Of a stretch of DNA of 64,000 nt, positions 2,743 to 57,031 are shown in pieces. The position numbers were made by a program, and so were the translations under genes. The stretch lies in assembly GCA_001940925.1 (NCBI GenBank), contig MSGZ01000024.1:46799-110798 (forward strand). The letters run 5' to 3'. Under the pieces are notes generated by a model. It was not told the DNA's origin, made no database searches, and was given only the letters and a program-made list of their open reading frames with translations. Numbering within the stretch: the first letter of the stretch is position 1; every line of letters begins with the position of its first letter. Source of the stretch: Ruminococcus sp. Phil11. GTDB taxonomy: Bacteria; Bacillota; Clostridia; Oscillospirales; Ruminococcaceae.

Positions 2743-5700
2743 TTGCTCGGACTGAAAGGAATTACCAAGGATTATCTCTCCGGAGATACCGCGGTACATG
2801 CACTCAGAGGAATTGACATCCAGTTCCGTCAAAACGAATTTGTCGCGGTGCTGGGACCGTCCGGCTGCGGCAAGACCACGCTGCTGAACATCATCGGCGG
2901 TCTTGACCGTTACACGGAGGGCGACCTGACCATTGCGGACAAATCGACCAAAGAATACAAGGACAGAGACTGGGATCATTACCGGAACCATACGATCGGG
3001 TTTGTCTTTCAGACCTATAACCTGATCCCGCACCAGACCGTGCTCTCCAATGTGGAGCTCGCGCTGACGCTCTCGGGCATTTCCAAAGCGGAACGCCGCG
3101 AGCGCGCCGTCAAAATGCTGGAGCGCGTCGGACTGGGCGACCAGCTCAAAAAGAAGCCGAATCAGATGTCCGGCGGTCAGATGCAGCGTGTTGCGATTGC
3201 GCGTGCGCTCATCAACAATCCGGAGATCCTGCTCGCCGACGAGCCGACCGGCGCACTTGATACTGAGACCAGCGTGCAGATCATGGATCTGCTGAAGGAG
3301 ATTGCGAAAGACAGACTGGTCATCATGGTCACGCACAACCCCGACCTTGCAGAGCAGTATGCAACGCGCATCATCCGTCTGCTGGACGGCAAGGTGCAGA
3401 GCGACTCGAAGCCCTATTCCGAAAAGCAGGCAGTGGCCGACCGCAAAAAGGCACTGAAAAAGAAGGAAAAGGAAGAAGCCGCCGCCGCGAAAAAGAGCAA
3501 AAAGGTCTCCATGAGCAGCGGTACTGCGCTTTCGCTGTCACTGAACAATCTGCTGACGAAAAAAGGCAGAACGATCCTGACGGCGTTTGCGGGCAGCATC
3601 GGCATCATCGGCATTGCGCTGATCCTGTCGCTCTCGGACGGCTTCCAGACCTTTATCAATACCGTGCAGGAGAACACGCTTTCCTCGTATCCGCTGACGA
3701 TCATGTCGCGGTCGGTCGATCTGACGAGCCTGATCGAGAATGTGACGGGGCAGGCGGAGCATAAAGATGAGCACCCGCTTGATAAGGTCTATGCGACCGG
3801 ACAGCACGCAGAGATGCTGAACTCCATGATGTCAGAGGTCAAGCAGAACGATATGGCAGGCTTCAAAAAGTATATTGAAGATCATGCTTCGGAGCTGGAA
3901 TCCTATAATATTGAATACGATTACAACATTCAGCCGCAGGTGTTCATGGCCGATACCAGTGAAAAAGTCACACCGGTCAACCCGAATCCGCTGGTCGATG
4001 CCTATTATCAGGCACTCGGTTATGACATGAACAATATGTCATCCTCATATTCGCAGATCATGTCCATGAGCACAGACGGTATGGATATCTGGACGCTGAT
4101 TTACGGCGACCGCGGGCTGCTTGAACAGCAGTACGATGTCATCAGCGGTCACTGGCCGGAGAACATGAACGAAGTCATCCTCGTGGTCGATGAGTACAAC
4201 GAGATCAACGGCATGACGCTCTACGGTCTCGGTCTGCGCGACCCCGCCGAAATTTCGGAGATGATGACGCAGATCATGTCCGGCGAGCCGATCGAAGCAA
4301 AATCCGAAAGCTTCAACTATAAGGATCTCATGAACATGCAGTTCAGCGTGATCCTCAATACAGATTACTACGAATTTGACAAAGCGGCAAACTGCTGGAA
4401 GGACCGCACCCGCGATGAGGAATATATGGCAAAGAAGGTCGATGACGGCGTTCAGGTGCATATTTCTGGTATTGTCCGCAAAAAAGAGGGTGCCGTCAGC
4501 GGTGCGCTGATGCCCGGAACGATCTGCTATACGCAGGAGCTGGTCGATTATCTGCTTGACGAGATCGCCGATACCGAAATCGTCAAGGCACAGCAGGACG
4601 ACCCGGAGACTGACGTTTTCACCGGCTACGAGTTCGAGGATCATGATGATGTGACGATCGACGATGTGTACGAGTATCTGGACAATCTGAGTGAGGCGGA
4701 ATTTGCACAGCTTCAGATGATGTTCTCCAATATGTACGGTAATTCGATCAAGCCGGAGGATGTGATCGGCAGCCTCAATTCCATGAGTGACGAGGAGCTT
4801 GTTGAGGCAGTCGCACCGTCGGTCATGGGCGATATCAGGCTGGAGGATGCAAAGGCATTTGCCGCGACCGAACAGGGTCAGGGCGCACTCATGATGATGC
4901 TCGCGGAGCAGGCCGGCACCGACCCCGATCCCGCAATGCTCGCGAACCTTGACGATGATACGCTGCTGACGCTCTATACAGAGATCGTCAAGTCGCAGCT
5001 GACTGCCGATGCGCTGCGCGAGAAGATCGCGAACATGAGCGAGGAGGAGGTCACGCAGCTGACCGAATCGCTCAATCCCGCAAAGGACAGAGAGAGCATG
5101 AAGGCCGCGCTCAAGACCATGGACGAGGAAATGCTGCTCAAGGTGTTCAAAGAGCAGATCCTTGCGCAGAACACCGACAACACCTATGAAGGCAATCTGC
5201 AGAAGCTCGGCCTGCGCGACCCCGACAGCCCGTTTGCGATCCAGATCTACTCCGAGAGCTTTGCGGCAAAGGAGGAGTTCGAGGACTTTATCAAGGGTTA
5301 CAACGACAGTCAGAAGGACGATGACGGCAAGATCGAATACACCGACTACATCGGTATTCTGCTGAAATCCGTGACCAAGATCATCAATATGGTTTCCTAT
5401 GTGCTGATCGGCTTTGTCTCGATTTCGCTGGTCGTGTCGTCCATTATGATCGGCATTATTACGTATATCTCGGTGCTGGAGCGCACAAAGGAGATCGGCA
5501 TTCTCCGTTCGATCGGTGCCTCCAAGCGCGACGTCAGCCGCGTGTTCAATGCGGAGACGTTCATCATCGGACTGGTCGCCGGACTGATCGGCGTGGCGGT
5601 CACGGTGCTGCTGGATATCCCGATCAATATCATCATCGAGAAGGTCTCCGGTGCGGCGCATGTCGCATTCCTGCGTCCGGCTTACGCGGCAATTCTGGTT

Positions 5701-37234: not shown

Positions 37235-40200
37235 ATGAAAACAATCTATGAGGTCATTTTGTCAGAAGTGAACAGGAAAAAGATGCGTCGTCAGCGTATG
37301 ATTTCACTGCTCCTGGTCCTTTCACTGTTCGTGACCTCCGGCGTCTCGTGGGCACTCCACGGCGTTGGCCTGACACTGGCCAATGAAGCGGAGTGCGGGA
37401 TCGAAGAGCATGTCCACACGGATGAATGCTATGAAGAACAGCTTGTGTGCGGACTTGAGGACGACACGGAGCACGTTCATACCGACGAATGCCGGGAAAT
37501 GAAGCTCGTCTGCGAACTGCCGGAGCATGTGCATGATGCCGCCTGCTATACGGGCAGCACGGATTTTGCGGCACTGCTGGGCGGCAGCAGTGTGAGCTTT
37601 GATGAAGCAGTCGCCAATGCTGAGGGCATTGCAGATGTTGTTTACACGGATGACTATGAGATCGAATCTGATGAGGCTGATGAGGCTGATGAGGCCGATG
37701 AGGCCGATGAGGCCGATGAGGCCGGTCAGGAGGACATGCCTGTTCTGAAAGCACCTGTGCTGAGAGCGGCAGGAGACAGCAGCGGCGGCAGCTACGACGA
37801 TCAGGGACGCTACATGGTCGATACGATCGACAATATTGCGGAAGGCATCAAGTTCACGCTGTTTGATTACAGCGGCGAAAAAAACGGTTCGAGCGGTGAT
37901 ACGCTCGAATCGCAGAACAACAACTACGGCTTCGCAACGGACGGATGGAACGGTCCGCTGATCGGCCCGCCGTATGAGCACAATAATGTTTCCTATACCG
38001 GTATCAACACCGGCAGAACGATAACGGATGATATCCTGTTCCTGGCATACGGCACGCCGGTGCCAAGCGGCGCAACCGGCGAGACTGTGTACGACGAAAA
38101 CGGCGAGCCTCATGTCGTGAATATCAATCAAGGGAGCGGCACGAATCAGCAATATGTACCGGATAAGAACAGCTACGCGGGCGACTACTACGCAGATCCG
38201 GTTTACTCCGGCAACAGAGCGGTGCAGGGAATTGTTCGGAAGCAGCTTGGCGCGGACGGCTACCCGGTGATTAACACGCCAAACGGCAGCAGCCTCGCTT
38301 ATCTGTTCGCCCCGAATACAAATGTGGGCGGCGACCAGAGTGCTTATAAGACTGTTTATGACGGCGTAAACCATGAAGGTGTGAACCACCTGCTGCAGAA
38401 GGATGAAGAAACCGGTCATCTCGTCTACAACAGCGATCTGAACTACGCCTATTTCGATCAGTCAACCGGAAACTTTATCGTATACGGAAATGATCCGGCG
38501 GATTCGAGTGATAACGGTTTTAAGGGTACTTTTGATATCATCAACGACGCGCATCATAACGGCGGTGAGTTCACCGGCAGATACGATACCGACGGAAACA
38601 AGATTTATTACGCTGAGGATGACACGGTAGATCCCGGTTTCAAGATCGGCTTCTTCCCGTTTGATCCCTATGACATAACGAGAAGAGACCCGAACTTCGA
38701 CGGAAACGGTTACAATCACCACTTCGGCATGACGATGGAAGCCGAATTCTCCAATCCGACTGCTGCGAATACCCCCGAGCCTGTTACATTCAAGTACAGC
38801 GGTGACGATGACATGTGGGTCTTTGTGGATGACATGCTCGTGCTTGACATCGGCGGTATCCACGAACCGGCCGGCGGTATGATCGACTTTACAAACAACC
38901 TTGTCTGGACACAGGATAACGGCAACGGCGGTCATGATCTGGATGATGTCAAGACACAACTGCAGGGCTGGGGCGTCATTTCCACCGAAGAGGACTGGGA
39001 AGCACTGCCGAAGCCGATCGGCATTGACACTTCATCGACGAGTTCCGGTTCCGGTACCAAGTGGATCGTGACGAAAATCTCCGATTACATTCCTGACTGG
39101 AACAGCACCGCTCATACAAAGACACACAAGATCAATATGTTCTATCTGGAGCGCGGCGGCTGCTATTCCAACCTTGCAATGGAAATGAATCTTCCGACAC
39201 TGAAACCGCTGACGGTTATCAAGAATGTCGATTATCAGCAGCATCTGGTCAAGGGACTTTACGAAAATACGGAGTATACCTTCCGTGTCTGGGAGTGGGA
39301 CAGTGCAAACGGCATCTGGGTTCACACCCAGAGTACGGATTCGGAGGGTCTTTTCTATCTGAAGGGCCTGAATGCGGACGGCACGTTTACCCTTAAGGAC
39401 GGTGAACGAAAGACGTTTGACGACCTCGGACAGGACCGAACCTTTAAGGTCGTGGAGGAAGGCATCAATCCGAATATCATCGGGCAGGTCACTGTCAACG
39501 GCAGTCCGGTCACGGTTGCCGGCGGCGAAGCTTCTTCAGACAGTGCCATGCTCAAGGATGTAAACAGCTACACCTTCAACAACCGGATTGTCGAAGAAGT
39601 CGGACCCGTCAGTATCAAAAAGGCATGGGCACCTGAGAATGTGACAATTCCGGCAGGCTACGATGCCGTCAAATTCAAAATCCTGCGGACCGATACCCAG
39701 ACGGGTGAGGTCAAGCAGGTTGCACTGAAGCAGGGCAGCGTCAAAACCAGAACCTTTGTCCTCTCCGCAGAGGAATGGGCACAGGGCAAGACCATTGACG
39801 GACTGCTGAAACGGTACGGCAATCACTACTACACCTATCAGGTAGAGGAGCTGAATGTACCGAGAGGCTTCAAGGCAGTCTACAGCACGGATGATAACGG
39901 AAACCTCGTGATCACCAATACTGATATCCGCGAGATGAATCTCAATGTGAAGAAGCAGTGGGAGAACAAGGAGAACCCGCCGAAGGTTCAGTTCAAGCTG
40001 ACGCGCAAGCGTGTGGGATATGAAGGCAGCAAGCCGACATCGCTGACCGTCAAAATTGTGGATGAAGCGGGCAATCCGATTATCTCCTACACAACACCGG
40101 CGTATGCCGAGGGACAGCCTTACAGCGGTCCTTATGTAGGCGGTGCCCTTGAATTATCCTACGTGATTCCGGAAGGCGCGGAGTATTACAGTGCAGACCC

Positions 40201-41977
40201 GAATTACCCGAAGGTTACACCGGGAACGATGGGACTTGAGGTGCATCCGGACGATAAAATTCTGGTCGTCAGCAATCTGGCTGCCAGCGGAAATGAAGTG
40301 ACGATCAAGATAAAGACAGCCGATGCGTGGGACAGCAAGCTTCTGCAGCATCATTCCTTCTCTGATTCCGACCCGAATGCGGAAGAGGAGGTGCGGAAGC
40401 AGAGCTGGACTGTGCAGAACGGTGTGGGAACAAATGCAAAAGCCGGCTATGACAGTTCTGTTTCCTACGGAAAAAACGGCGGCTCGCTGCTGATCTCCGA
40501 CAGATCGAAATCCTACAACGGCGCGGTTCTTTACCTCGATCCGTCAAAGTATTTCGGAAACAAGACCTACACGTTCAGTGCTTATGTTTACAGTCCGATT
40601 GCGGATACGTTCAAGATGACCTTCAACAACGGTCTGGGCGATTATCGTCCGATCGGACAGACAAATGTTCCGGCTAATACATGGACGCAGGTCAACGGAA
40701 CCGTTCAGCTTTCAGGCGATATCGACCCGTACGGTATGTTCCTGGTGCTCGAGTCGCTCCCGACGAATAACGATTATACGGATTATCCGCTGAAAGACGG
40801 CGGAACCTGGTTCCGCATGGACGAGTTCACGGCGATCGAAGGAACCGACCCTGTCACGGTCTCGCCGACTGACGGCAAAGTGACAGTCGGCGGAGGCAGC
40901 GGCGACAATGTCATCTATGATTTCCAGTTCCGTAACGGCTGCAGTGATGAAGGCTGGAGCGTTCAGGATTATAACAATAACAACAATAACAGAACAAGGA
41001 TTGAACCGGGGCGGCCGAATCACGGCTTTGACGGTATTGTTGTAGTCGGCAGAAATGCGCACAATGACGGTGTTTCGATCAGAGTTCCGAATCTGGTGCC
41101 CGGAAAAACCTATCACTTTGAAGGTCAGGCACAGGAACACAGCAACGGAAGTCCTGCGCAGACAATTCAACTGAGCATGAACACAGGAAACAATAGTTAC
41201 CCGCCTGTTGTGCAGAACATTCAACTGAATGCGAACAACAATGCAAACTATGAAATCCATGATTTTGCAGGCGACTTCACGGTTCCGGCGGATGCGAATC
41301 AGAACACCATGACCATCTATTTTGAAACGCCGTATAATTCCGGTGATAACGGTGATTTCAGATTGCTGTATCTCACCGTTACAGAGCCCGGTACTGCGGC
41401 ACCGCCGACAGATGAGATCGGCTACGATGAATCGAGCGGACAGTATGTCACCGATTTCAGTGACCGCAGTTACCAGATCGTGCCGGACGAAAATTCGTAC
41501 ACGAATCCGCCGCATCTCGCAGAAAGCGGCTATCAGACGGAAGCAGGCTGGCAGAGAATCATTACACTTCCTGATGATTCGGATGACGGTGCGTCCTGGA
41601 CCTATCACTGGGACAACGACAGCAGCCGTTCTTCGACTGATCCGCATTACATCTTCGAGGATAACAGTTGCCTCTACGAATATCACATTGAAGAGATTTT
41701 AGTAGATCACAACGGCAATGAACTGACAAAGGATGATGACGGCAACTGGGTTGACGCAAACGGCAAGGTTGTTTACCTTGTCAGTTATCAGAACAACGAT
41801 GTTGACTCAAATGTTCCCGAAAGCCCGATCGTGGTGAAGAACACTTACACCCGTTACTGGCTGCCCGATACGGGCGGCATGGGAGCAAACGGTTACTGCT
41901 TCACAGGCCTGCTCCTTGCAATGACTGGTATGATTGGCGGCTACGCCTTGAAAAGACGCGAAAGGAGGTTCCGATGA
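37235..41977 (+). CDS. Large sortase-anchored pilus/adhesin protein: His/Cys repeats, fibro-slime domain, Cna-B domains, CBM-like modules, LPDTG
   Basis: EEHVHTDECYEEQLVCG/EHVHTDECREMKLVC; FKYSGDDDMWVFVDDMLVLDIGGIHEPAGG (fibro-slime); Cna-B segments; beta-sandwich CBM-like segments; YWLPDTGGMGANGYCFTGLLLAMTGMIGGYALKRRERR. Confidence 0.85.
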   Translation: MKTIYEVILSEVNRKKMRRQRMISLLLVLSLFVTSGVSWALHGVGLTLANEAECGIEEHVHTDECYEEQLVCGLEDDTEHVHTDECREMKLVCELPEHVHDAACYTGSTDFAALLGGSSVSFDEAVANAEGIADVVYTDDYEIESDEADEADEADEADEADEAGQEDMPVLKAPVLRAAGDSSGGSYDDQGRYMVDTIDNIAEGIKFTLFDYSGEKNGSSGDTLESQNNNYGFATDGWNGPLIGPPYEHNNVSYTGINTGRTITDDILFLAYGTPVPSGATGETVYDENGEPHVVNINQGSGTNQQYVPDKNSYAGDYYADPVYSGNRAVQGIVRKQLGADGYPVINTPNGSSLAYLFAPNTNVGGDQSAYKTVYDGVNHEGVNHLLQKDEETGHLVYNSDLNYAYFDQSTGNFIVYGNDPADSSDNGFKGTFDIINDAHHNGGEFTGRYDTDGNKIYYAEDDTVDPGFKIGFFPFDPYDITRRDPNFDGNGYNHHFGMTMEAEFSNPTAANTPEPVTFKYSGDDDMWVFVDDMLVLDIGGIHEPAGGMIDFTNNLVWTQDNGNGGHDLDDVKTQLQGWGVISTEEDWEALPKPIGIDTSSTSSGSGTKWIVTKISDYIPDWNSTAHTKTHKINMFYLERGGCYSNLAMEMNLPTLKPLTVIKNVDYQQHLVKGLYENTEYTFRVWEWDSANGIWVHTQSTDSEGLFYLKGLNADGTFTLKDGERKTFDDLGQDRTFKVVEEGINPNIIGQVTVNGSPVTVAGGEASSDSAMLKDVNSYTFNNRIVEEVGPVSIKKAWAPENVTIPAGYDAVKFKILRTDTQTGEVKQVALKQGSVKTRTFVLSAEEWAQGKTIDGLLKRYGNHYYTYQVEELNVPRGFKAVYSTDDNGNLVITNTDIREMNLNVKKQWENKENPPKVQFKLTRKRVGYEGSKPTSLTVKIVDEAGNPIISYTTPAYAEGQPYSGPYVGGALELSYVIPEGAEYYSADPNYPKVTPGTMGLEVHPDDKILVVSNLAASGNEVTIKIKTADAWDSKLLQHHSFSDSDPNAEEEVRKQSWTVQNGVGTNAKAGYDSSVSYGKNGGSLLISDRSKSYNGAVLYLDPSKYFGNKTYTFSAYVYSPIADTFKMTFNNGLGDYRPIGQTNVPANTWTQVNGTVQLSGDIDPYGMFLVLESLPTNNDYTDYPLKDGGTWFRMDEFTAIEGTDPVTVSPTDGKVTVGGGSGDNVIYDFQFRNGCSDEGWSVQDYNNNNNNRTRIEPGRPNHGFDGIVVVGRNAHNDGVSIRVPNLVPGKTYHFEGQAQEHSNGSPAQTIQLSMNTGNNSYPPVVQNIQLNANNNANYEIHDFAGDFTVPADANQNTMTIYFETPYNSGDNGDFRLLYLTVTEPGTAAPPTDEIGYDESSGQYVTDFSDRSYQIVPDENSYTNPPHLAESGYQTEAGWQRIITLPDDSDDGASWTYHWDNDSSRSSTDPHYIFEDNSCLYEYHIEEILVDHNGNELTKDDDGNWVDANGKVVYLVSYQNNDVDSNVPESPIVVKNTYTRYWLPDTGGMGANGYCFTGLLLAMTGMIGGYALKRRERRFR
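37668..37722 (+). repeat. 9-bp tandem coding repeat (GATGAGGCY)n encoding (DEA)n
   Basis: Six consecutive GATGAGGCT/GATGAGGCC units; DEADEADEADEADEADEA. Confidence 0.85.
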
Positions 41978-42053
41978 TGTGAGCTTCCCGTAACGTGATG
42001 AAAAAGGCGTCCACCGAAAAAACAAAAAAATTATGATTATGGAGGATAAAAAA

Positions 42054-43826
42054 ATGAAAAAGACGAAGAGATTTGCAGCATTGCTGACAGCCGGCCTGCT
42101 GGCACTCGCTCCGTGCGCAATGGCTTCCATGAGCCTGACCGCATTTGCTTCCACGCTCACCGTGACTGATACGGATCCGGCGGAGCATACTTACAATGCT
42201 TATCAGCTCATTACCGGTACAAAGGATGCTGACGGCAACCTTTCCGATATGAACTGGGGTGACGCGATCACCGACGACGGCGCGGCTCTGATTGCTGCGC
42301 TGAATGCCAAGAAGACTGATCTCGGTATTGATGAGCTTGCTTCCGATGCAACCGTCAACCAGGTTGCGGCACAGCTTGCCAAGATCAAGGACGCAGACAA
42401 GATTCAGATTCTTGCAAAGGTGTTCAACGAGACAGGCGTTCTGACCAAGACGGCAGCGAAGCCGCTGGCGAAATCCGGAACAAAATATACAAACACTACA
42501 CTGGCTGACGGCTGGTACCTGATCCTTGATGAAAGCGATCCGCTTGTGTCCGGTGAAACAGAAGGCGTCAAGGTCAGAAGTGCAAATCTGCTGAAGGTTG
42601 TTGAGGATACCGAGGCCGTGGCAAAGCACTCTCTGCCGAGCGTTGAGAAGAATATCGTGGAAGATACGGGGAAAGTGAAAGCAAACTCCGCTTCGATCGG
42701 CGATACTGTGAACTATGAGATCAAAACAAAGAGCCCCGATGTGACAGGCTAAGACAAGTACTACTTCGTGCTGAATGATACGCTTTCCAAGGGCCTGACC
42801 TATGCCGATACACTGACGGTTACGCTCGGCGGGTCGCCTTTGACGCTTGATGAGGACGGCGCAGGCACTGATAAGGACGGTCAGTACTATCTGGTTCAGG
42901 GCACTTACAGTGATACAACCGGTACGACGCTCAAGATCGTTTTTAAAGACTGTGTTGATCTCTTCAAGGATGTTGATGCCGGCACAGATATCGTCGTCAC
43001 GTATAAAGCCACTCTGAACGAGAACGCTGTTATCACGGATGCAGGCAACCCGAATACGGTCAATCTTCAGTATTCCAATGATCCGAATGAGGACACGGAC
43101 AATACGAACGAGCCCGGTAAGCCGGATGAGCCGAACGAAGATGCTCCGACCGGCAAGACCCCGGATGATGAGGTCAAGACCTATACCACGGCACTCAAGC
43201 TCCAGAAGCTCGATAACAAGAACACCCCGCTTGCAGGTGCATCGTTCAGACTCACCGGCAACGGCGTGAACAAGGTCATCACCGTCGGTACGTTCTATGT
43301 CGAGGATGCGGCAGGTACCTACTATAAGCTGAATGACGGTTCCTATACTACAACCGCTCCGACAGATGCAACCGCTTCCAGCTATGCAGACACAACGAAG
43401 AAGTACAAGGTCGAGACCACACAGACCATTACGCAGAATACGACTGAGGGCAGTGAGGTTTATGTGGAAGCGTTTGTTGACGCAAACGGTGTTCTGACCT
43501 TTACGGGTCTCGGCGACGGCGAATATAAGATCGAGGAAATCGTCGTTCCGGACGGCTACCAGAAGGCTGCTGACGTCACGATCAAGATCGAATCGAACCC
43601 GAATTTGACGAAAGCAAACTGGACCGTCACAAAGGACAGCGAAACGGCACTGACGCAGAATGCAGAGTTCCAGTATGAGTTCAATGTGGTCAATGTTCAG
43701 AAATCGAACCTGCCGACTACCGGCGGCATGGGCACCAAGCTGTTCTACCTGCTCGGCGGTATGCTGGCAGTCGGCTCGGGCATCGTGCTGGTCACCAAGA
43801 AGAGAATGTCCGATGCTGAGAAGTGA
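42054..43826 (+). pseudogene. Major pilin backbone gene (LPTTG) interrupted by one in-frame TAA at 42750-42752
   Basis: Signal peptide MKKTKRFAALLTAGLLALAPCAMASMSLTAFA; ...YEIKTKSPDVTG-TAA-DKYYFVLNDTLSKGLTYADTLTV...KSNLPTTGGMGTKLFYLLGGMLAVGSGIVLVTKKR; both halves in the same frame; ORF track shows 42033..42752 and 42768..43826. Confidence 0.85.
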
Positions 43827-43864
43827 GACATTCTGACAGAATGACGCACAATCCATGAATCAAT

Positions 43865-43892
43865 GCAGCGGGAGGTATCACCCTCCCGCTGC
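43865..43892 (+). promoter_or_regulatory. Perfect 11-bp hairpin between pilin and sortase genes
   Basis: GCAGCGGGAGG-tatcac-CCTCCCGCTGC, no following T-run. Confidence 0.7.
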
Positions 43893-43919
43893 AAAGCTTA
43901 TCCGAAAAAGGAATCGCAG

Positions 43920-44747
43920 ATGAAGCACAAAATACTGAAATACGGACTGGCGGCAGCATTTTTCATCGGCATTGCACTGATGCTGTATCCGCCTGTCAGC
44001 GATTATTTCAACACGCGGAACAATGCAAGGGTCGTGCAGAAGTATCAGGATGCCGTGCGGGATATCCGGGAAAGCGAACAGCAGCAGATTCTTGCTGAGG
44101 CGCAGGATTATAATCAGCGGCTTGCGGAAACCCCGGAGGGCTTTTATTATCCGGCGCGCGTGTCCGGCTATGAAGATACGCTGGACATCACCGGAACCGG
44201 CATCATGGGCTATCTGAATATTGACAAGATCAATCTGGAGCTGCCGATTTATCACTCCGTGGAGCCGGAGGTGCTGCAGGTCGCGATCGGACATCTGCCG
44301 GGCAGCAGTCTGCCGGTCGGCGGTGCGGGCACGCATACGGTGCTTTCGGGGCACAGAGGCCTGCCGAATGCAAGGCTCTTTTCCGATCTTGACAAGCTGG
44401 AACCCGGCGACCGCTTCACAATTACGATCCTGTCTGAGGTCTTTACCTATCAGGTGGAGAAAACCAAGACCGTCGAGCCGTATCAGGTCGATGATCTGCA
44501 GATCGAACCGGGAAAGGACCTCTGCACGCTGTTCACCTGCACGCCATACGGCATCAATACGCAGCGGCTGTTCGTCCGGGCGATCCGTGTTCCGAATGAC
44601 GAGAAGGAGGAATCCCGCGTTTACTACCGGAATGAGGCTTACCGCGTGACGCCTGCAATCGTCGCACCGATACTCGGTGCACCTGTGCTGCTGATTCTGT
44701 ATATCCTGCTGCTCGTTTTCGGAAACAAAAAGTCACGCAGACATTAA
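43920..44747 (+). CDS. Class C sortase
   Basis: GTGIMGYLNIDKINLELPIYHSVEPEVLQVAIGHLPGSSLPVGGAGTHTVLSGHRGLPNARLFSDLDKL...LCTLFTCTPYGINTQRLFVRAIR; C-term TM. Confidence 0.95.
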   Translation: MKHKILKYGLAAAFFIGIALMLYPPVSDYFNTRNNARVVQKYQDAVRDIRESEQQQILAEAQDYNQRLAETPEGFYYPARVSGYEDTLDITGTGIMGYLNIDKINLELPIYHSVEPEVLQVAIGHLPGSSLPVGGAGTHTVLSGHRGLPNARLFSDLDKLEPGDRFTITILSEVFTYQVEKTKTVEPYQVDDLQIEPGKDLCTLFTCTPYGINTQRLFVRAIRVPNDEKEESRVYYRNEAYRVTPAIVAPILGAPVLLILYILLLVFGNKKSRRH

Positions 44748-44802: not shown

Positions 44803-45957
44803 TTATTTGTTTCTGAGAATGTTCTGCTTGAGCAATGCGAGGTCGGAGGCTTCCAGCTTGCCGTTCTTGTCCAGATCGGCGATCTTTGCCTTTTCTTCAT
44901 TCAGGAATTCGATCGTCAGCAGATGCTTTTGCAGCAGCACGGCGTCTGCGGAATCGCATTTGCCGTCTGCATTGATGTCTCCGATGACCTCATCGACCGG
45001 CTCCTGATAGCTTTCATCGAATACCATTTTTGCACGCTGCAGGAATGCGTCACCGGACGGCTTTTCCACACTGTTCCACGCAGACTGGCTGCCGTAGAAT
45101 GTGATCGTAGCGGTCGCGTCGTTGTCTGTGAAGGTGTAGCCGTCGATTTTCGTCAGTTTGCCGGAAATCTTCAGATCCGTCAGCTTATCGCAGTCTCCGA
45201 ATACGCCGAATCCGAGCTCTGTGACACCCGGCATTTCGACCGAGGTCAGAGCGGAGCACTGCCAGAACGTATTTTCCTGCATGTGCTTGACGCTGGCAGG
45301 GAACTTGACTGAGGTGATCTTGTTATTTTTGGAGAATGCGCCGGTTGCAACATACGTCACGCCCTTCGGAATCACGACATCACCGGTGCAGGTTCTGCCG
45401 TCAATCACGGAGCCGTTGACGATGACAAGCGGATCCTTTTTGCGCTGCGCTTCCAGCCACGGCGTCTCGTCAAAGGTGAAGTCACCTGTCCAGATCGGCT
45501 GTTCGGGGAAGTTGATCTCCGAAAGCTTCTTACAGTATTCAAACGCATGGAACTTGATGACCTTCAGGGAACTCGGGAACGTCACAGAGGAGAGGTTTTC
45601 GCTGAAGCCGAATGCATACGGCCCGATCTCCTCAAGAGTATCCGGGAATATGATTGACGTTGCACTGCACTGCTGAAATGCATAAATGCCGATTTTCCTG
45701 ACCGGCAGTCCGTCAATGCTGGACGGAATCTCCAGTGTGCCGGAAGCCTGCTTGCCGCCGGTGATCTCAATATACTGCGAATATTTTTTGTAATCAAACG
45801 TGCCGTTAGACTTGTATTCGCCTTCTTCCTCTGCGTAGGCTGTAATCGGCGCAGCAGAAAGAATCACCGGCTTTGCAGCCAGAGACATTCCGCCTGTCAG
45901 CATGACGGCGGCGAGGATCGCAGAGACCCTCAGAATGCTTTTTCTTGTTTTCATCAT
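44803..45957 (-). CDS. Secreted LRR_5 (BspA-type) protein with canonical dockerin
   Basis: LRR_5 repeats (IGPYAFGFSENLSSVTFPSSLKVIKFHAFEYCKKLSEINFP); GDINADGKCDSADAVLLQKHLLTI...ADLDKNGKLEASDLALLKQNIL; RBS AGGAGGGG. Confidence 0.88.
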   Translation of the reverse strand: MMKTRKSILRVSAILAAVMLTGGMSLAAKPVILSAAPITAYAEEEGEYKSNGTFDYKKYSQYIEITGGKQASGTLEIPSSIDGLPVRKIGIYAFQQCSATSIIFPDTLEEIGPYAFGFSENLSSVTFPSSLKVIKFHAFEYCKKLSEINFPEQPIWTGDFTFDETPWLEAQRKKDPLVIVNGSVIDGRTCTGDVVIPKGVTYVATGAFSKNNKITSVKFPASVKHMQENTFWQCSALTSVEMPGVTELGFGVFGDCDKLTDLKISGKLTKIDGYTFTDNDATATITFYGSQSAWNSVEKPSGDAFLQRAKMVFDESYQEPVDEVIGDINADGKCDSADAVLLQKHLLTIEFLNEEKAKIADLDKNGKLEASDLALLKQNILRNK

Positions 45958-46182
45958 AGCCCCTCCTGTACATATCATGGATCGTTCCCCCTCCCGGAAA
46001 CGTCTGTCAGCGTCCTGCCACCCGTGTCAGGAACGCTCAACTTTATTATACATGATTCCGGCGCGAAAGTCAATGATAAATATGCGAAATATGCAAAAAG
46101 CCGTGGAAGCAGCAATTCCTTTTTATGCGGTATTTCTGATAGATTTATAATCATCTTCCATTGTGATCTTAGTCTTGCAGCG

Positions 46183-47124
46183 TTATGGTTTTACAGTGCT
46201 GCCGGAAGGATCTTCTTTGGCTTTGGTTCTCGCACTGAAATATCCTCTCGGTTCCTTATAATTCGGATTCGTTTGAGCGTTGTCGGCACAGTGCTGTCGA
46301 AGGGTACTGGTAATATATTCAACTTGCTGTTCCGACAGAACGTCCGGATCGTTCGTGAACATATCTTCCAGAAAATCTCTTAATACAAAAAGATTCAAAA
46401 CAAATACGCCCGGAGAGTGAATGTCCATGTAATCTAATTCACAGGTATCGGAAAACGCGACCGCCGAATAATACTTCTGGCATTGGACGGCTCTTTGAAT
46501 TGCATTGATATGCGATTGGTTTTGCAGTACAGGATTGTTGAACTGGTAATCCCTTCGCCTTGTTTTGAGTGTCCACTTGTTCTGATATTCAGCACCGTGT
46601 ATTCTTCCGTTATAGTTTTTAGTCTCGAAAACGAATATACCTTTTCTGGTAATATACACGACATCAATTTGAATGGTTCTGTTCCCGGCTTCAAATTCAA
46701 GGTTGTGAACGATATTCCCTTCAAATCCCGCTCTGCTGCAGAGTTCCAGTTCAAAAACGGTCAGTTTCTCCCCGAATAAACCGTCTAACGTGGAAGATAC
46801 TCCGCAGCCTTCATCACGGGAGCACTCAGTTGATATTCGCTTTTCAACATAGATTTCATGCGTAAGAATGCTTATTGCTTCTTCTCGTTCTGTCGGATTA
46901 TCAAACTCTATTTCATGCAGACGTTCTTCTACTCGGCGTCCTAGCTCAATTCCTTCTATCATCAGTGAAAAACGTATTCTTGATTCTATAATTCCATTTG
47001 CAAATAAAGGCTGACTTTGAAAATATTTGTCTGCATTTTCGACAGCTTGTCTTACGAGGTGATCTGCCTTTTTCAAAGAATCGGCATACAGTTGTTCAAT
47101 TTCAGTCTTTGACAGTATATTCAT
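46183..47124 (-). CDS. NERD (nuclease-related) domain protein
   Basis: GNIVHNLEFEAGNRTIQIDVVYITRKGIFVFETKNYNGRIHGAEYQNKWTLK. Confidence 0.8.
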   Translation of the reverse strand: MNILSKTEIEQLYADSLKKADHLVRQAVENADKYFQSQPLFANGIIESRIRFSLMIEGIELGRRVEERLHEIEFDNPTEREEAISILTHEIYVEKRISTECSRDEGCGVSSTLDGLFGEKLTVFELELCSRAGFEGNIVHNLEFEAGNRTIQIDVVYITRKGIFVFETKNYNGRIHGAEYQNKWTLKTRRRDYQFNNPVLQNQSHINAIQRAVQCQKYYSAVAFSDTCELDYMDIHSPGVFVLNLFVLRDFLEDMFTNDPDVLSEQQVEYITSTLRQHCADNAQTNPNYKEPRGYFSARTKAKEDPSGSTVKP

Positions 47125-47232
47125 TATTCCACTTCCTTCCATAGATGAAATATTGATGATTCATATTTATTATAGCACTGATCATTTCAGATTGTCAAGA
47201 TATAATTGGCAGGATTATTGAGCAAGTAAAAA

Positions 47233-47260
47233 GAGAAGCTCCCGCAAAGGGGAGCTTCTC
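47233..47260 (-). terminator. Terminator downstream of 30-aa peptide gene
   Basis: Minus strand GAGAAGCTCCC-ctttgc-GGGAGCTTCTC followed by TTTTTA. Confidence 0.75.
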
Positions 47261-47283: not shown

Positions 47284-47376
47284 TCAGAATTCATCATCCA
47301 CAAGGCTGATAGACTCCGTGATAACATCTTCAGCATCAAATGCAATGATCTGAACCTCAGGTGCTGTGTATTCCAT
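47284..47376 (-). CDS. Unlisted 30-aa peptide MEYTAPEVQIIAFDAEDVITESISLVDDEF
   Basis: ATG 22 nt after stop of the 1890-aa gene, GAAAGGA RBS, own TGA stop, terminator just downstream; too short for the ORF track. Confidence 0.7.
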   Translation of the reverse strand: MEYTAPEVQIIAFDAEDVITESISLVDDEF

Positions 47377-47398
47377 CTTCGTTTTTCCTTTCTGTGTA

Positions 47399-50300
47399 TT
47401 ATTCCTCATAAGCTGCAGCGGCTTCGCCGTATTTCACGATCGCCTTCAGCAGGTTTTTGAGATCATTGTTTGTGCTCGTCTCGAGCATTCTCTTGGCGTA
47501 GGTGTACACGCCGTACTGCACCTCTGCACAGTCAGCAGGGTCAGCAACGGATTCTGCGCGCACGACATACATCTCATCGAAGTCGGTCGGTGCGATGCCC
47601 CTGCAGGACACGACATAGACGTCGCCGTCCTTTACGGGCTTCACAGTCTGGCCGTTCACAGTGAATCTGTAATCGGAGACAGATGCGCCTTCTGCAAGCG
47701 TGAACTTCACGTTCAGCGAGATCAGGGATGCGATCGAAAGGTTGGCACTCTTTGCTCTGACGGTCGTTCCGTTGTTCGCAATCACAGCCTTGTACTCGTC
47801 ACCGATCGTGACTACTTCGTTGTCGAGCGGCATGTTGATCAGATTGTTGATGAGCTTTTCTTCCGGCTCGCCGTTGAACTTCTGGAGATATCCGCCGTAG
47901 TTCACCAGTGCCTTGATCAGGGCTGCCATTTTGGGATCGAGGTTCGTTTTACGCAGAACATTCTGGAAATAGGTTCTGAGGCTGTAGTCGAGAACCGTTC
48001 CGCGAACGCCGTCCGAGTACAGGATCTGTGCTCTTACGTTGTCAGACATCTTGATCGGGTCGATCTTGCAGGTGAAGGTATAGGTGCCGTCGCCGTTTGA
48101 TCTTGCCTGCGTCATCTTCACGTTCTGGACGGTGCCGTCCTCGAACTCGAAGCGGATGACTGCGTTCTTGTCTGCGAATGCTGCCGGGCTGAGCTTTGCC
48201 TTGAGGTTCAGCTTGACCTCGCCGCTGATCGAGACATTTGCGCCGGTGAATGCATCTCTGCCGTTATGCAGTTCGCCGCAGAGCCTGCACTTTCCGTGGT
48301 CGTTGAAGTCATGGTGAATGTCTGCGTAGTAGATATGTGCACCTGCCTCTGCACCTGCCGTGAACGGCTCAAAAACTTCATCGTGTGCATCGTCTGCGTA
48401 CCAGCCGAGCAGCGGGCAGGTCTCTGTGCCGATATCCGGCAGGCTGTTCACGACAGTGCCTGCAGGGACCTGCATGAGCTCGGTTCTGCCTTCCCAGTAG
48501 TTCAGCAGAATGTTGACGCGGAGGTCATTCTCGCGCTCGCTGAAGTCCTTGACTTCACCCTCTGCAACGAAGGAGCAGCCGTTTTTGACGGTGATGTTCG
48601 TGCCCGGTGCAAGGATCACGGTGATGAAATCCGGAATCGTCACATTGGTCGTGATGTTGATGTTGCCGAACAGGGTCATCATGGTCGGCTCGCCGGCTGC
48701 TGCCGCATCGGCGATCGCGCCTCTGACATCCTGATAGCACTCGCCGTTTGCGAGCATTGCCGTTGCGCTGCTGTGGACGTACTTTGCATTGATGAGCTGA
48801 CCGCAGGTCTTGCAGACCTTGATCGCAGTGCCGTTCTTGCCGTTGGCCGGAACGTCGAGCACATAGTAATCGCCGGTGCAGTCATGCGGCTCAAGGCTGT
48901 GGAGCGGATAGTCGATCACATAGCCGTTGTCATACTCAATATGTACGACAGCGTCTCTGTTTGCTTCCAGTGCGGTGATGCTGAGCACAGCGTCGCCGCT
49001 GATGACCAGCTTGCCGTCGTCCTGCTGCTCGTAGTCGCCGTAGATGACGCCGAGCTCAAACGGAACAGAAGGCGTGCTGCGGCTCAGCAGGCTCATCAGA
49101 CGCTGGAATGCCGGTGCCGGGGTGCGCGGTGTGCCGTCTGCATTTCTGACCTCGACGGTTGCGGTGACGGATTCCTCCGGCTGCTTGAGGATTGCGATGC
49201 AGTCCTCAACAACGGTGTAGCCCTCGCCGAGACCGTTGATGTCGTATTCGGAAGCGAATGCATCGACCAGGAAATTGTCATAAGAGGTGCGGTTTTCCTC
49301 GCTGTCCGGACCGTTTGTCCAGTCGTAGTCGAGGAGCAGGTACTTCTTTGCTGCGCCCTCTGCGCCCGGAAGCATGGACTGACCGCCGGGGCCGCAGTTG
49401 TCGATCGCATAGGAAGCCGCTGCCTTTGTCATGGCACGGAAATAATGGCTGGAGTTCTTTGCCTTCAGCTCGTCGGAGACATCGCCGACGATGACCTCAA
49501 ACGGGATCTCCGTCGTGGAGCCTTCCAGTGTTGCCACGGAAACTCTTTCGAGCACATGGCCGATGTGGATCTCAGACAGGTATGCGCTGTAAAGTCTGGT
49601 GCAGAAGTTGAGTGCCTTCAGCCACGGATTTGTGCCGAAGGAGCTTGCGAGAACGATCGCATCCGCTGCGAGCTTCTGCTTTTCAAGGTCCTTTTCAATG
49701 ATCGACTTCCAGATGTCGTTGATGACGACCGTGATCTCAACGGATTCGCCCGGGAGCAGCTCGTCAACATGGACATGCTCCACATTGCCTGCGCATTGCA
49801 GGCGCTTGTTTTCGGTCTCAAGTCTGGAGGTGCCGTTTTCATAGATCTTACGGGTTGTCAGGGTGCCCTGCTCGACCTTCTTGATTCTGTGGTCGAGGTT
49901 GTAGATCGGCTTGTCGGAGACATTTTTCAGGGTGATCTTGACCGGGTACGGCTCATTGTAGAAGGAGTAGCCCGGCATTTCAATGATCATCTTCAGAGCG
50001 TCGCCTGCATAGACATGCAGATCATTCTTGGAGTGGAAGGTGTACTCGAATTCCTCGCCGCCGGATTCGCCGGTGAACTTGGAGCTCAGGGTATAGATGC
50101 CTGCCTTGTCGCCTCTGAGGTACCAGTGCACATCAAAGACACCGCCCGGAGCGAGGTTGCCCAGCTGCTGGGTCTGTGCGCTGTTGCAGAGCGTGAGGCC
50201 GTCCGGAACGTCCAGGACCGTTTTGCAGTTTCTCATGGTCTGGGTGTCCTTGTTGACTACGATGAGCTGGACATCATAGAATTCCTTGAGCCATTTTGCC

Positions 50301-53707: not shown

Positions 53708-56671
53708 TCAGCCGACGGGAAGCTTGTCAAGCGGAAACTGATCGAAGCGGATCTTCTTCGCAATGATCATGAGGATTGCGGTGAGATCGGAGGAATCGAG
53801 CGGACCGCTGATGACATTCGCCTGCATTCTGCCCTGATCGGTGATGATCGCTTCTGCATCCTCTGTCAGATACCGCGCAAGCAGAACGGCATCGGAAACG
53901 TCGGTATTGCCGTTGCCGTCGGCGTCACCCCAGACCGTCTCCTGCGGCGAACCCGGGCAGTACCAATCCTGCAGGTAATATACGATCCATGCCAATTCCG
54001 CATTCCAGCTGAGCGAGACCGAATTGCACGACCATGCTTCAACAGAATCAACATAACATTTCTCGGACGGGTTCTTCTCATCATTCCGGATGAATCCGAG
54101 AGCACGGAGATACGGGTCAGCGAGATCAATGGTCGGACCTGCGACAAGTACGCCGTCGGGTGCCGCCGGCAGTGTGTTGTCCAGCTCATAAGTCCAGTAT
54201 CTGTGCTCCGGATTCCACACTTTGTATTTGCCGTAGCCGGTGACATAGGAGAACGAAAGCGGGTTGCAGCCGAACAGATATCCCATGCCGGTCGTGATGC
54301 CGTTATAGTATTTGGCATTACTGGTCAGGTCGTATGCATATGCCATTGCGATCATATTGCTGACTGCTCTTGCATTGGAACCGTACTCAAAGCCGTCAGG
54401 GGGCAGGATCTCAGGTCCGGACGGCATAATATAGGGGTCGGATTTGCGCCCCTTGTACGGGATGCCGTAGCCTTGCTCCTCCTCCGCCGCGATATATTCA
54501 TCGGCAGCCGCAAGGATCGCTTTGTCCAGCGTGTTCTTCTGTTCCGCGGTCAGCATATCCGTATGCAGTGCCAGCGACAGAGAACCTGCCGCACCGGTGT
54601 TGCCCCAGTTGAACAGCGTGAGGGAACCTTTATCGTCTTCATTGTCACCGCCGGTGATCCTTGTCGGCAGCTTGAATGCTTCCTGATACGCGGAGAGGTC
54701 TTTCAGATAATCCTCTGCACCGGCAGTTCCCATGGCCTTCGCGGAAAGATACAGCTCACAGGCTGCCCAGTAGGCATCGTCGCTGACATCGCAGTCGCCG
54801 TAGCCGTTCGTGATGTAGTTCTGTAATTTCGGCGCATACTGCGATTTCTCATTGATTTCCTCGCGCGTGCTGTCGTTCTTGTAGCGCGGATGCACGGCAA
54901 AGGAAAGGTCTGCATCGTAATAATGCTGCTTGAATGCCTGATAGGCTTCCGCTGCCTTTGTCATAAGTGACTGTGCATAGTCTGCATCATACTCCTGCCA
55001 GAGTCTTGCCGCCTGTGCCGCACATGCAGCGTAATTCAGCGTCGCGGCGAAGGTCGGCGGCTTGATGATGCGTTCGGTTTCCCATTCTTCCTGATAATCC
55101 CACGGTCTGACCGCAAGTCCCGTCCATTTGCTGTCCTGCACCTGGTGATAGTAGAGACCTGCCAGCTCACCCCATGTCGGTTCGTTTGCATCGACCTTCA
55201 TCTTCTCCATGAAGTCGAGTTCGTATCTGCATTCATCGAGAATATCCGGCGCGGCATTGCCTGTCTCCGGAACCACACAGGTACCTGAACCGTCCTTGAA
55301 TACAGACCTGCCTGCGCGCTTCAGAGACCGCTCATACATATTCTGGAGCGTCCAGACAGCCATGCCGCCTTCGATCATGGATTTGGTGTGATCTGCAGCG
55401 TTGTACCAGCCGCCGGTCACATCTGCTTTGGAGGATGCGTATGTCTGATGCGCTTCCTGCTTATCCATGTAAATATCGCGCCACTCTGTCTGGATATACG
55501 CAAGATCCTGTTTATGGCTGCCCCTGTGTGCAAGCGTCCCCGTTTCACCGGAGGTAATGTACTTTGCTTCAATATCCATACCGGAACGGTTCTGGTAGAA
55601 ATAATTGAGCGCATTCGTCAGCATATCATTTGTGTCATCCTGATAAGGATTGTCTGCGATCTGAAATTCAAAGGAGCGCCATTCCGTATCCTTGATGCGA
55701 AGATAATAGGTACCGGGCGTCGTATACTCGGAGAAGTCGATCCTGCAGACATTCTCCTGCGAATCCTCGTCATAGAACTTCTTGCCGGTCGTGCCGGTAT
55801 AAACGGTCTCGCCGGAGGATGCACCGACCAGCTCAAAGGTGTAGCTGTCCTCAGTCAGGTCAATGGACTCCGACCACGGCAAGTGTGAAGGATTCGACTG
55901 ATTGTCGCCGAGTGTTGCAGTCTTTGCGCCTTTCGTGAAATAGCCGAGCTGATTCACAGAAATAAAGTTGTCCTCAAGACGGCTCCAGTAGCGGCTGACT
56001 CTGCTATAACTCATATCCATGGGGTTGAGGTCGCATCCTATCGAATTATCAATAATCGACATGTTGTCAAACCAGATCTCATCGCCGTCCGTTGCATTGC
56101 CCTTTTCACCGTCAGCATAGTGGAACACCCACTCTTTCGCTTTGAGGCATTCGGTGCATTCAAAGGTGCCTTCAAAGGTCTGCCACTCCGTCGTCAGCGT
56201 GACCGGCTCGCCCCAGCCCTGGCCGCCGCCGTCCATGTGCGGCCCCTGCACGAAGCCTTCCTTTTTCAGACAGCAGTATTCATGATACGGTTCACCGGTA
56301 TCGCCGATGTGGGAATTGATCTTCAGGCCGTCTCTGCTTGCCTTTGCGCTGAAGCTGACCTTGTATGTATGACCTGCATTGAAATCCAGTTTTCTGTGGC
56401 GGAACTGCAGATCCCACGCCTCGCCGTCCCAACCCCTTGCTGTGATGATCCGAATGTGTACGGTTCCGTCCTCAAGCTGGAATTCCTGTCTGGCCGGCAT
56501 ATTTTCGACTGTGTGCCACGGAAGCATTTTGTAATCAAAGGTCGATTCGCCGCAGATCTCTCCATGTGCGGCTGATACGGTCAGTGCCGGAAACATGCTG
56601 ACTGCTGCGGATGCTGTCACAGCAGCAGACATGACTGCCGCCGTGATCCGTTTGGATAGTTGTTTTTTCAT
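53708..56671 (-). CDS. CBM-like + Ig-like + GH9-family protein with C-terminal dockerin; catalytic acid apparently missing
   Basis: CBM4-like N-term; NFISVNQLGYFTKGAKTATLGD (CelD_N); GGWYNAADHTKSMIEGGMAVWTL; SFSYVTGYGKYKVWNPEHRYW; CYVDSVEAWSCNSVSLSWNAELAW; dockerin GDADGNGNTDVSDAVLLARYL...QANVISGPLDSSDLTAILMIIAK. Confidence 0.88.
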   Translation of the reverse strand: MKKQLSKRITAAVMSAAVTASAAVSMFPALTVSAAHGEICGESTFDYKMLPWHTVENMPARQEFQLEDGTVHIRIITARGWDGEAWDLQFRHRKLDFNAGHTYKVSFSAKASRDGLKINSHIGDTGEPYHEYCCLKKEGFVQGPHMDGGGQGWGEPVTLTTEWQTFEGTFECTECLKAKEWVFHYADGEKGNATDGDEIWFDNMSIIDNSIGCDLNPMDMSYSRVSRYWSRLEDNFISVNQLGYFTKGAKTATLGDNQSNPSHLPWSESIDLTEDSYTFELVGASSGETVYTGTTGKKFYDEDSQENVCRIDFSEYTTPGTYYLRIKDTEWRSFEFQIADNPYQDDTNDMLTNALNYFYQNRSGMDIEAKYITSGETGTLAHRGSHKQDLAYIQTEWRDIYMDKQEAHQTYASSKADVTGGWYNAADHTKSMIEGGMAVWTLQNMYERSLKRAGRSVFKDGSGTCVVPETGNAAPDILDECRYELDFMEKMKVDANEPTWGELAGLYYHQVQDSKWTGLAVRPWDYQEEWETERIIKPPTFAATLNYAACAAQAARLWQEYDADYAQSLMTKAAEAYQAFKQHYYDADLSFAVHPRYKNDSTREEINEKSQYAPKLQNYITNGYGDCDVSDDAYWAACELYLSAKAMGTAGAEDYLKDLSAYQEAFKLPTRITGGDNEDDKGSLTLFNWGNTGAAGSLSLALHTDMLTAEQKNTLDKAILAAADEYIAAEEEQGYGIPYKGRKSDPYIMPSGPEILPPDGFEYGSNARAVSNMIAMAYAYDLTSNAKYYNGITTGMGYLFGCNPLSFSYVTGYGKYKVWNPEHRYWTYELDNTLPAAPDGVLVAGPTIDLADPYLRALGFIRNDEKNPSEKCYVDSVEAWSCNSVSLSWNAELAWIVYYLQDWYCPGSPQETVWGDADGNGNTDVSDAVLLARYLTEDAEAIITDQGRMQANVISGPLDSSDLTAILMIIAKKIRFDQFPLDKLPVG

Positions 56672-57031
56672 TGAACCCCGTCCTTTCCTGTCGGTGCAGC
56701 CGGTGCGGTACAGCATCCGGCTGCGTGCTGTGTATACAGTCTGTTTTCCCTCTCGCTTTGCAGCTGCGTCCGTACTTCGCTGCTGTTTTGCGGTCTGAAC
56801 CGGAGGGCATGTTCTGTGATGCGCTCCGGGAAGCATTTGCGCCGTACCGCAAAGCTCCCCGCTTTTCTCATTATACAACAAAAAGATTCACTTGTAAAGA
56901 GGAGAGTTGGGGAAAATGTCAAAATTCCGTAAATCTTAATTTTCCGCAGCAGACGTAATACAGAGCACGCCCATGCGTTCCGTGCGCATACGGAACGCGT
57001 GATCCAAACACTTCTGCATAATCATCCGCTC

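Follow-up and report, generated by a model that had tools for sequence, protein, structure and literature searches.

The linear polyphosphorylated peptide (LPP) RiPPs, represented by lppAKBSDN of Paenibacillus alginolyticus, have been described from Bacilli (Popov et al., PMC13381572, May 2026). Their precursors carry the leader motif YxxPxVLxHQxIxFETxxS, the YxxP part of which is bound by LppB, where Asn33 fixes the leader proline; the SipW-like LppS, helped by LppB, cleaves after T-1, and LppK phosphorylates S3 of the core repeatedly (PMC13381572). The biological role of LPPs is stated there to be unknown, and the Clostridial order to which the locus reported here belongs is absent from the main text of that paper (PMC13381572).

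Other systems resemble the present family in part. Paeninodin-type lasso peptides have, like it, an RRE-binding [Y/W]xxPxL leader, an HprK-like kinase, a PF14907 NTP transferase, and an ABC exporter, but need a B2 protease and a macrolactam cyclase as well, and the aromatic residue of their leader is Trp where in this family it is Tyr. The SynChlorMet cassette (TIGR04248-04250) contains radical SAM proteins together with an HprK-like ScmC (E 2e-8) and a weakly related PqqD-like ScmD, all of these matches being far below the curated cut-offs. In the prochlorosins (ProcA/ProcM), many dispersed precursors with one leader are served in trans by one enzyme set, with lanthionine chemistry; this trans-acting organisation resembles that of the present family, while the leader and enzymes are unrelated.

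The family member considered here is a 30-aa gene in the window, by which is meant the whole stretch of 64,000 nucleotides analysed from Ruminococcus sp. Phil11. The gene, its signals, and the gene upstream of it are as follows:

47284..47376, (-) strand: 30-aa gene, predicted LPP-type RiPP precursor, translation MEYTAPEVQIIAFDAEDVITESISLVDDEF; supported by the translation, 13 paralogues, and codon-level selection
47387..47392, (-) strand: Shine-Dalgarno-like GAAAGG, 10-15 nt upstream of the 30-aa start
47233..47260, (-) strand: intrinsic terminator with a perfect 11-bp stem, 6-nt loop, and T5, 23 nt past the peptide stop codon
47399..53071, (-) strand: paired secreted host protein of 1890 aa, with a signal peptide-like N terminus and a Thr-rich linker, from reading of the ORF
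47402..48256, (-) strand: C-terminal domain of the host, two repeats, ~285 aa, common to peptide-paired secreted proteins; model pLDDT 92

These coordinates, the translation, and the 22 nt that separate the stop of the 1890-aa ORF from the start of the peptide reproduce those of the preliminary description, and the ribosome-binding site and perfect terminator that it reported are likewise present. There is an alternative in-frame ATG at 47409, which would give a 41-aa peptide; the 30-aa start is preferred over it since the inner Met is where the family members begin and the ribosome-binding site is placed to match. When the gene is compared with its orthologue in L124, third positions account for 7 of the 8 base changes within the first 22 codons, with 6 synonymous changes and 1 non-synonymous codon, while the codons of the tail change freely. 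This third-position bias suggests that the 30-aa frame is translated under selection, with a fast-evolving end. The ORF is confirmed as a real gene rather than a chance one.

Nearby in the window, a perfect 12/12 sigma-70 promoter with an extended -10 is present at 47198-47169 (-), just upstream of a 319-aa ORF (46183-47142) that, when read, looks like a NERD nuclease-related protein. Also by reading, there is an LPXTG pilin-type operon with a class-C sortase at 37235-44747 (+), and there are flanking dockerin genes for a leucine-rich protein (44803-45978, (-)) and a GH9-like enzyme (53708-56881, (-)), neither of which has a family peptide behind it.

Within its own genome, the peptide is one of 13 paralogues scattered over many contigs, found by single-sequence tblastn, with the same 13 found by profile search. 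By profile search of the order sample, family members are present in 59 of 247 genomes and 41 of 127 genera; the statement in the preliminary description that similar short peptides recur in ruminococci was correct. A phylum-wide sample has the family in only 2 of 299 genomes. First searches of the literature on small ruminococcal proteins gave nothing relevant, and Pfam and NCBIfam have no model for the window peptide or for any of 30 relatives. The consensus over 82 members is Y, P, E, a hydrophobic residue, E-[IV]-[IV], F, and E-D-[VI]-I-T-x-S, with L/I/M/V two residues after the leader P, and the Y is conserved in 72, P in 73, F in 69, D in 81, T in 65, and S in 76 of these peptides. Past the ITxS are tails of 6-39 mostly acidic residues, from which Cys and His are almost absent. 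The family is one with a conserved leader of ~20 aa (YxxPE...EDVITxS) and short, acidic, fast-changing tails. In one region of the same genome (L045, C41:94000-107020) two near-identical host-peptide units are in tandem, the pair having been duplicated recently, and in L256 (766-1336) five tandem peptide genes precede a kinase/PqqD/S26/NTase cassette, in a MAG that is labelled Synergistaceae and is possibly mis-binned.

Division of the window peptide on the LPP model would give:

47317..47376, (-) strand: predicted leader, residues 1-20 MEYTAPEVQIIAFDAEDVIT, with the YxxPE RRE-binding motif, from conservation over 82 peptides and the binding of YxxP to LppB (PMC13381572)
47287..47316, (-) strand: predicted core, residues 21-30, ESISLVDDEF, if cut after Thr20 as in LPP (Thr in 65/82, Ser in 76/82)
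47311..47313, (-) strand: codon of Ser22 (Ser in 76/82), predicted target of the HprK-like kinase by analogy with LppK acting on core S3

The peptide had been called leaderless, which is accurate in that it has no Sec signal, but a RiPP-type leader is present. The LPP junction is FETxxS with HQ in the leader, whereas the family has EDVITxS and no HQ, the Thr and Ser being kept with their spacing off by one. On account of the ITxS junction and the missing HQ, the window peptide is filed as an LPP variant rather than a canonical LPP, and the predicted cleavage after DVIT (Thr20) and predicted phosphorylation of Ser22 are shifted guesses because the junction is not FETxxS. The cores differ in length as well, being mostly 6-25 aa in the family and 45 aa in the LPP, and a genome has as many as 13-17 dispersed precursors, probably acted upon in trans, compared to 1-3 within the cluster for the LPP.

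It had been noted that no modification enzymes are obvious beside the gene. This is so for the immediate neighbourhood, but not for the genome, the enzymes having been missed because their cassette is on another contig. There is one PqqD above the cut-off in the genome (PF05402, E 4.8e-15), a divergent family member encoded on contig C35. Its operon also encodes an HprK-like kinase, an S26-like protease, and an ABC exporter; no PF14907 NTase is present within the 19 kb read around this cassette. A second HprK-like kinase is 17 kb from it, with no PqqD nearby (L179 6004-6753; C35:34019-34744). In L113, L117, and L084 the peptide is followed directly by the HprK-like kinase, PqqD/RRE, S26-like peptidase, and ABC exporter, often with a PF14907 NTP transferase, and the peptide adjoins the same cassette in L097, L110, L111, and L190. 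All four LPP-type enzymes (RRE, kinase, SpI-like peptidase, and MsbA-like exporter) are together on C35 and in L113, L097, and L110. Within 5.5 kb of 80 GTDB HprK loci there is a PqqD in 59, S26 in 53, ABC in 38, the peptide in 34, and the PF14907 NTP transferase in 31. Among the named carriers are Ruminococcus flavefaciens Y1, with its cassette in L207, and Kandleria vitulina DSM 20405. Across the 247 genomes of the order, 53 have peptide and kinase, 6 the peptide alone, 9 the kinase alone, and 179 neither (p ~2e-37, uncorrected for phylogeny); within the genus these numbers are 14, 6, 1, and 9 (p 0.005). Where peptides are present but no kinase was detected, in 6 of the 59 peptide-bearing genomes of the order sample and 6 of 20 in the genus, the assemblies are mostly drafts.

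The cassette proteins bear out the likeness to LPP, with which the family has in common the YxxP leader motif, variable C terminus, discrete RRE (LppB), HprK-like kinase (LppK), SipW-like leader peptidase (LppS), MsbA-like exporter (LppD), lack of need for a cyclase, NTP transferase (LppN) in many relatives, and frequent siting near polysaccharide genes. A search of the PDB with the single PqqD sequence of this genome returned only noise, and a profile was needed for matches, which were to LppB (9x8z, 4.5e-9), TbiB1 (9.5e-10), and PbaB1 (3.7e-8). These scores to LppB and to the lasso RREs are similar, so similarity alone does not set the clade. The Asn aligned to the LNG of LppB is 95% conserved in the family RREs, where PbaB1 and TbiB1 carry G and D. 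The model of the S26-like protein (pLDDT 91) resembles SipA, SpsB, and LexA (S24/S26 fold), and Ser23, His62, Asp48, and Asp77 are invariant in the alignment of its family; catalytic Ser, His, and Asp as in LppS are present, the equivalent of LppS D93 being either D48 or D77.

The coupling to a large secreted protein, proposed for this one gene, is seen generally. A gene was counted as paired when a co-directional gene no more than 100 nt upstream encoded a protein of 230 aa or more with a signal peptide, the latter called by a simple rule. By this count 63 of 113 peptide genes are paired, compared to 24 of the 591 control genes (odds ratio 30), and the median gap between host and peptide gene is 17 nt. 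No Pfam or NCBIfam domain is above cut-off in the 1890-aa host, but many hosts carry the same two-repeat C-terminal domain. The domain profile matches ten loci in this genome, and all ten are directly upstream of a peptide gene. Comparison of the domain model with the PDB found no close solved relative, the matches being to generic tandem beta-sandwiches with TM ≤0.25 to the query. Fusion of the peptide to the host C terminus was suspected in three cases; it is rejected in L106 and L109, where the upstream open frames are only short, and is possible in L120, where the upstream frame is of 310 residues.

A Cys is found past the leader region in 8 of 126 peptides, and a radical SAM enzyme is adjacent to 6 of these 8, compared to 2 of the 118 others (p 1.5e-7). 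The enzyme in L205 has its best scores to RiPP maturases, and the maturases are of the radical SAM/SPASM type. Those of ~450 aa beside Cys-core members are in L205 (969-2342), L213 (4631-5992), L269 (7766-9124), L274 (4619-5989), L276 (5235-6614), and L192 (4873-6192). The Cys-core members are probably a separate, thioether-type RiPP branch with a common leader.

The window gene is therefore best read, with considerable though not complete confidence, as encoding an LPP-type RiPP precursor that would be matured in trans by the remote cassette. The gene may be co-transcribed with that of the upstream secreted protein, given the 22-nt gap and the shared terminator. By homology to LppB, the YxxPE leader would bind the only PqqD/RRE protein of the genome; the HprK-like kinase, if it acts as does LppK, would phosphorylate the conserved Ser, which here is Ser22; and the cytoplasmic SipW-like serine peptidase, if similar to LppS, would cut the RRE-presented leader after DVIT. 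The acidic core of ~10 aa, ESISLVDDEF, could then be exported by the ABC transporter of the cassette, and the single C35 cassette would serve all 13 dispersed precursors. The RiPP-like nature raised in the preliminary description is strongly supported by the conserved leader, the co-occurring cassette of RRE, kinase, leader peptidase, and exporter, and the Cys-core members beside radical SAM/SPASM maturases.

Within the same system, the S26 protease may instead cut after ITxS according to the -3/-1 rule of signal peptidases, which also fits this junction, so that the Ser stays on the leader and the core is ISLVDDEF. With T at -3 in 65/82, S at -1 in 76/82, and the S24/S26 fold of the enzyme, this was the first idea; it was demoted on the LPP biochemistry, in which the cut made by the characterised LppS follows T-1 and the kinase acts on the Ser further downstream (PMC13381572), and is now considered unlikely. 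A lasso peptide precursor is far less probable. Lasso leaders do have [Y/W]xxPxL and a penultimate Thr, comparable to the YxxPx[L] leader, the T at -2, and the Ser as core residue 1 seen here, and the RRE profile matches TbiB1 as well as LppB. However, lasso membership is rejected on the missing B2 protease (Transglut_core3, PF13471), for which nothing in the genome is above cut-off (best E 0.18); neither it nor a macrolactam cyclase (Asn synthetase-like) is present in the cassette regions read, many cores have no D/E at ring positions 7-9, and the protease is S26-like rather than B2.

That the product is an unmodified small protein, acting as partner or chaperone of the host C-terminal domain, with the enzyme cassette coincidental, would account for the strict pairing with all ten copies of the domain and for the translational-coupling distance. 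It is nonetheless improbable in view of the genome-wide association with the RRE/kinase/protease cassette, the direct adjacency in many genomes, the contrast in conservation between leader and tail, and the radical SAM enzymes beside Cys cores; the chaperone-type role suggested in the preliminary description found no support, and the signalling role that it also suggested is a possible one. Least probable, and given hardly any weight, is that recombination at the 3' end of duplicated secreted-protein genes left the sequence behind as an untranslated or regulatory remnant. The tandem units on C41 speak for this, but the third-position bias in orthologues, the ribosome-binding sites, and the spread across ~40 genera with unrelated hosts argue against it. 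As an LPP-type system, the family is new in its many in-trans precursors, its pairing with a secreted C-terminal-domain protein, its stalk-echoed cores, and its Cys-core/radical SAM subgroup, neither this subgroup nor the association with secreted and anchored stalk proteins being known for LPP.

Behind many peptide genes there is a gene for a small protein that has a disordered linker and is a lipoprotein, membrane-anchored, or of the SLH type, and the C terminus of this downstream stalk protein often repeats the core. The repeats are located as follows:

L190 8409-9848: core repeat GDNGTGWG
L193 4508-6692: core DNDIADPWG, recurring inside a nearby SLH protein
L238 ~5253-5378: core repeat GGAG(N/T)ED
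L248 ~5205-5306: core repeat ELPFVPA

For 22 pairs of core and stalk C terminus, the match is better than in permuted pairs (p 5e-5, or p 0.008 without the best three). Tested against all neighbouring proteins, 7 of 82 cores are top-ranked where ~3 are expected, which is not clearly an enrichment overall, and the signal is present only with directly downstream anchored stalk proteins; the echo is graded as suggestive for this reason. In L118 (11692-12974) the tail TTERFSE is identical to the residues just past the site at which the SLH protein encoded downstream (AGMTTERFSESP) is predicted to lose its signal. The repeats suggest a common tag recognised outside the cell, perhaps, by conjecture, by the host C-terminal domain. 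It is possible, if tentative, that outside the cell the C-terminal-domain protein, secreted alongside, has the exported core as its partner or ligand. More doubtful is a three-part surface docking system, in which the domain would bind the acidic tag, the stalk would display it, and the exported, possibly phosphorylated core would control attachment or release.

This case illustrates that RiPP precursors, as genes of 30-60 aa, can escape notice when their enzymes are encoded in another part of the genome and there is no model of their family. There appears to be a large Clostridial branch in which the precursors are scattered and each goes with a secreted protein, usually one that has the common C-terminal domain, and in which cores are echoed in nearby surface-anchored proteins. 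The pairing with one class of secreted protein is a first clue to what LPP-type peptides do, and it makes of the question of what LPPs are for a concrete one of binding; the docking system, if true, would be the first function for LPP-type RiPPs.
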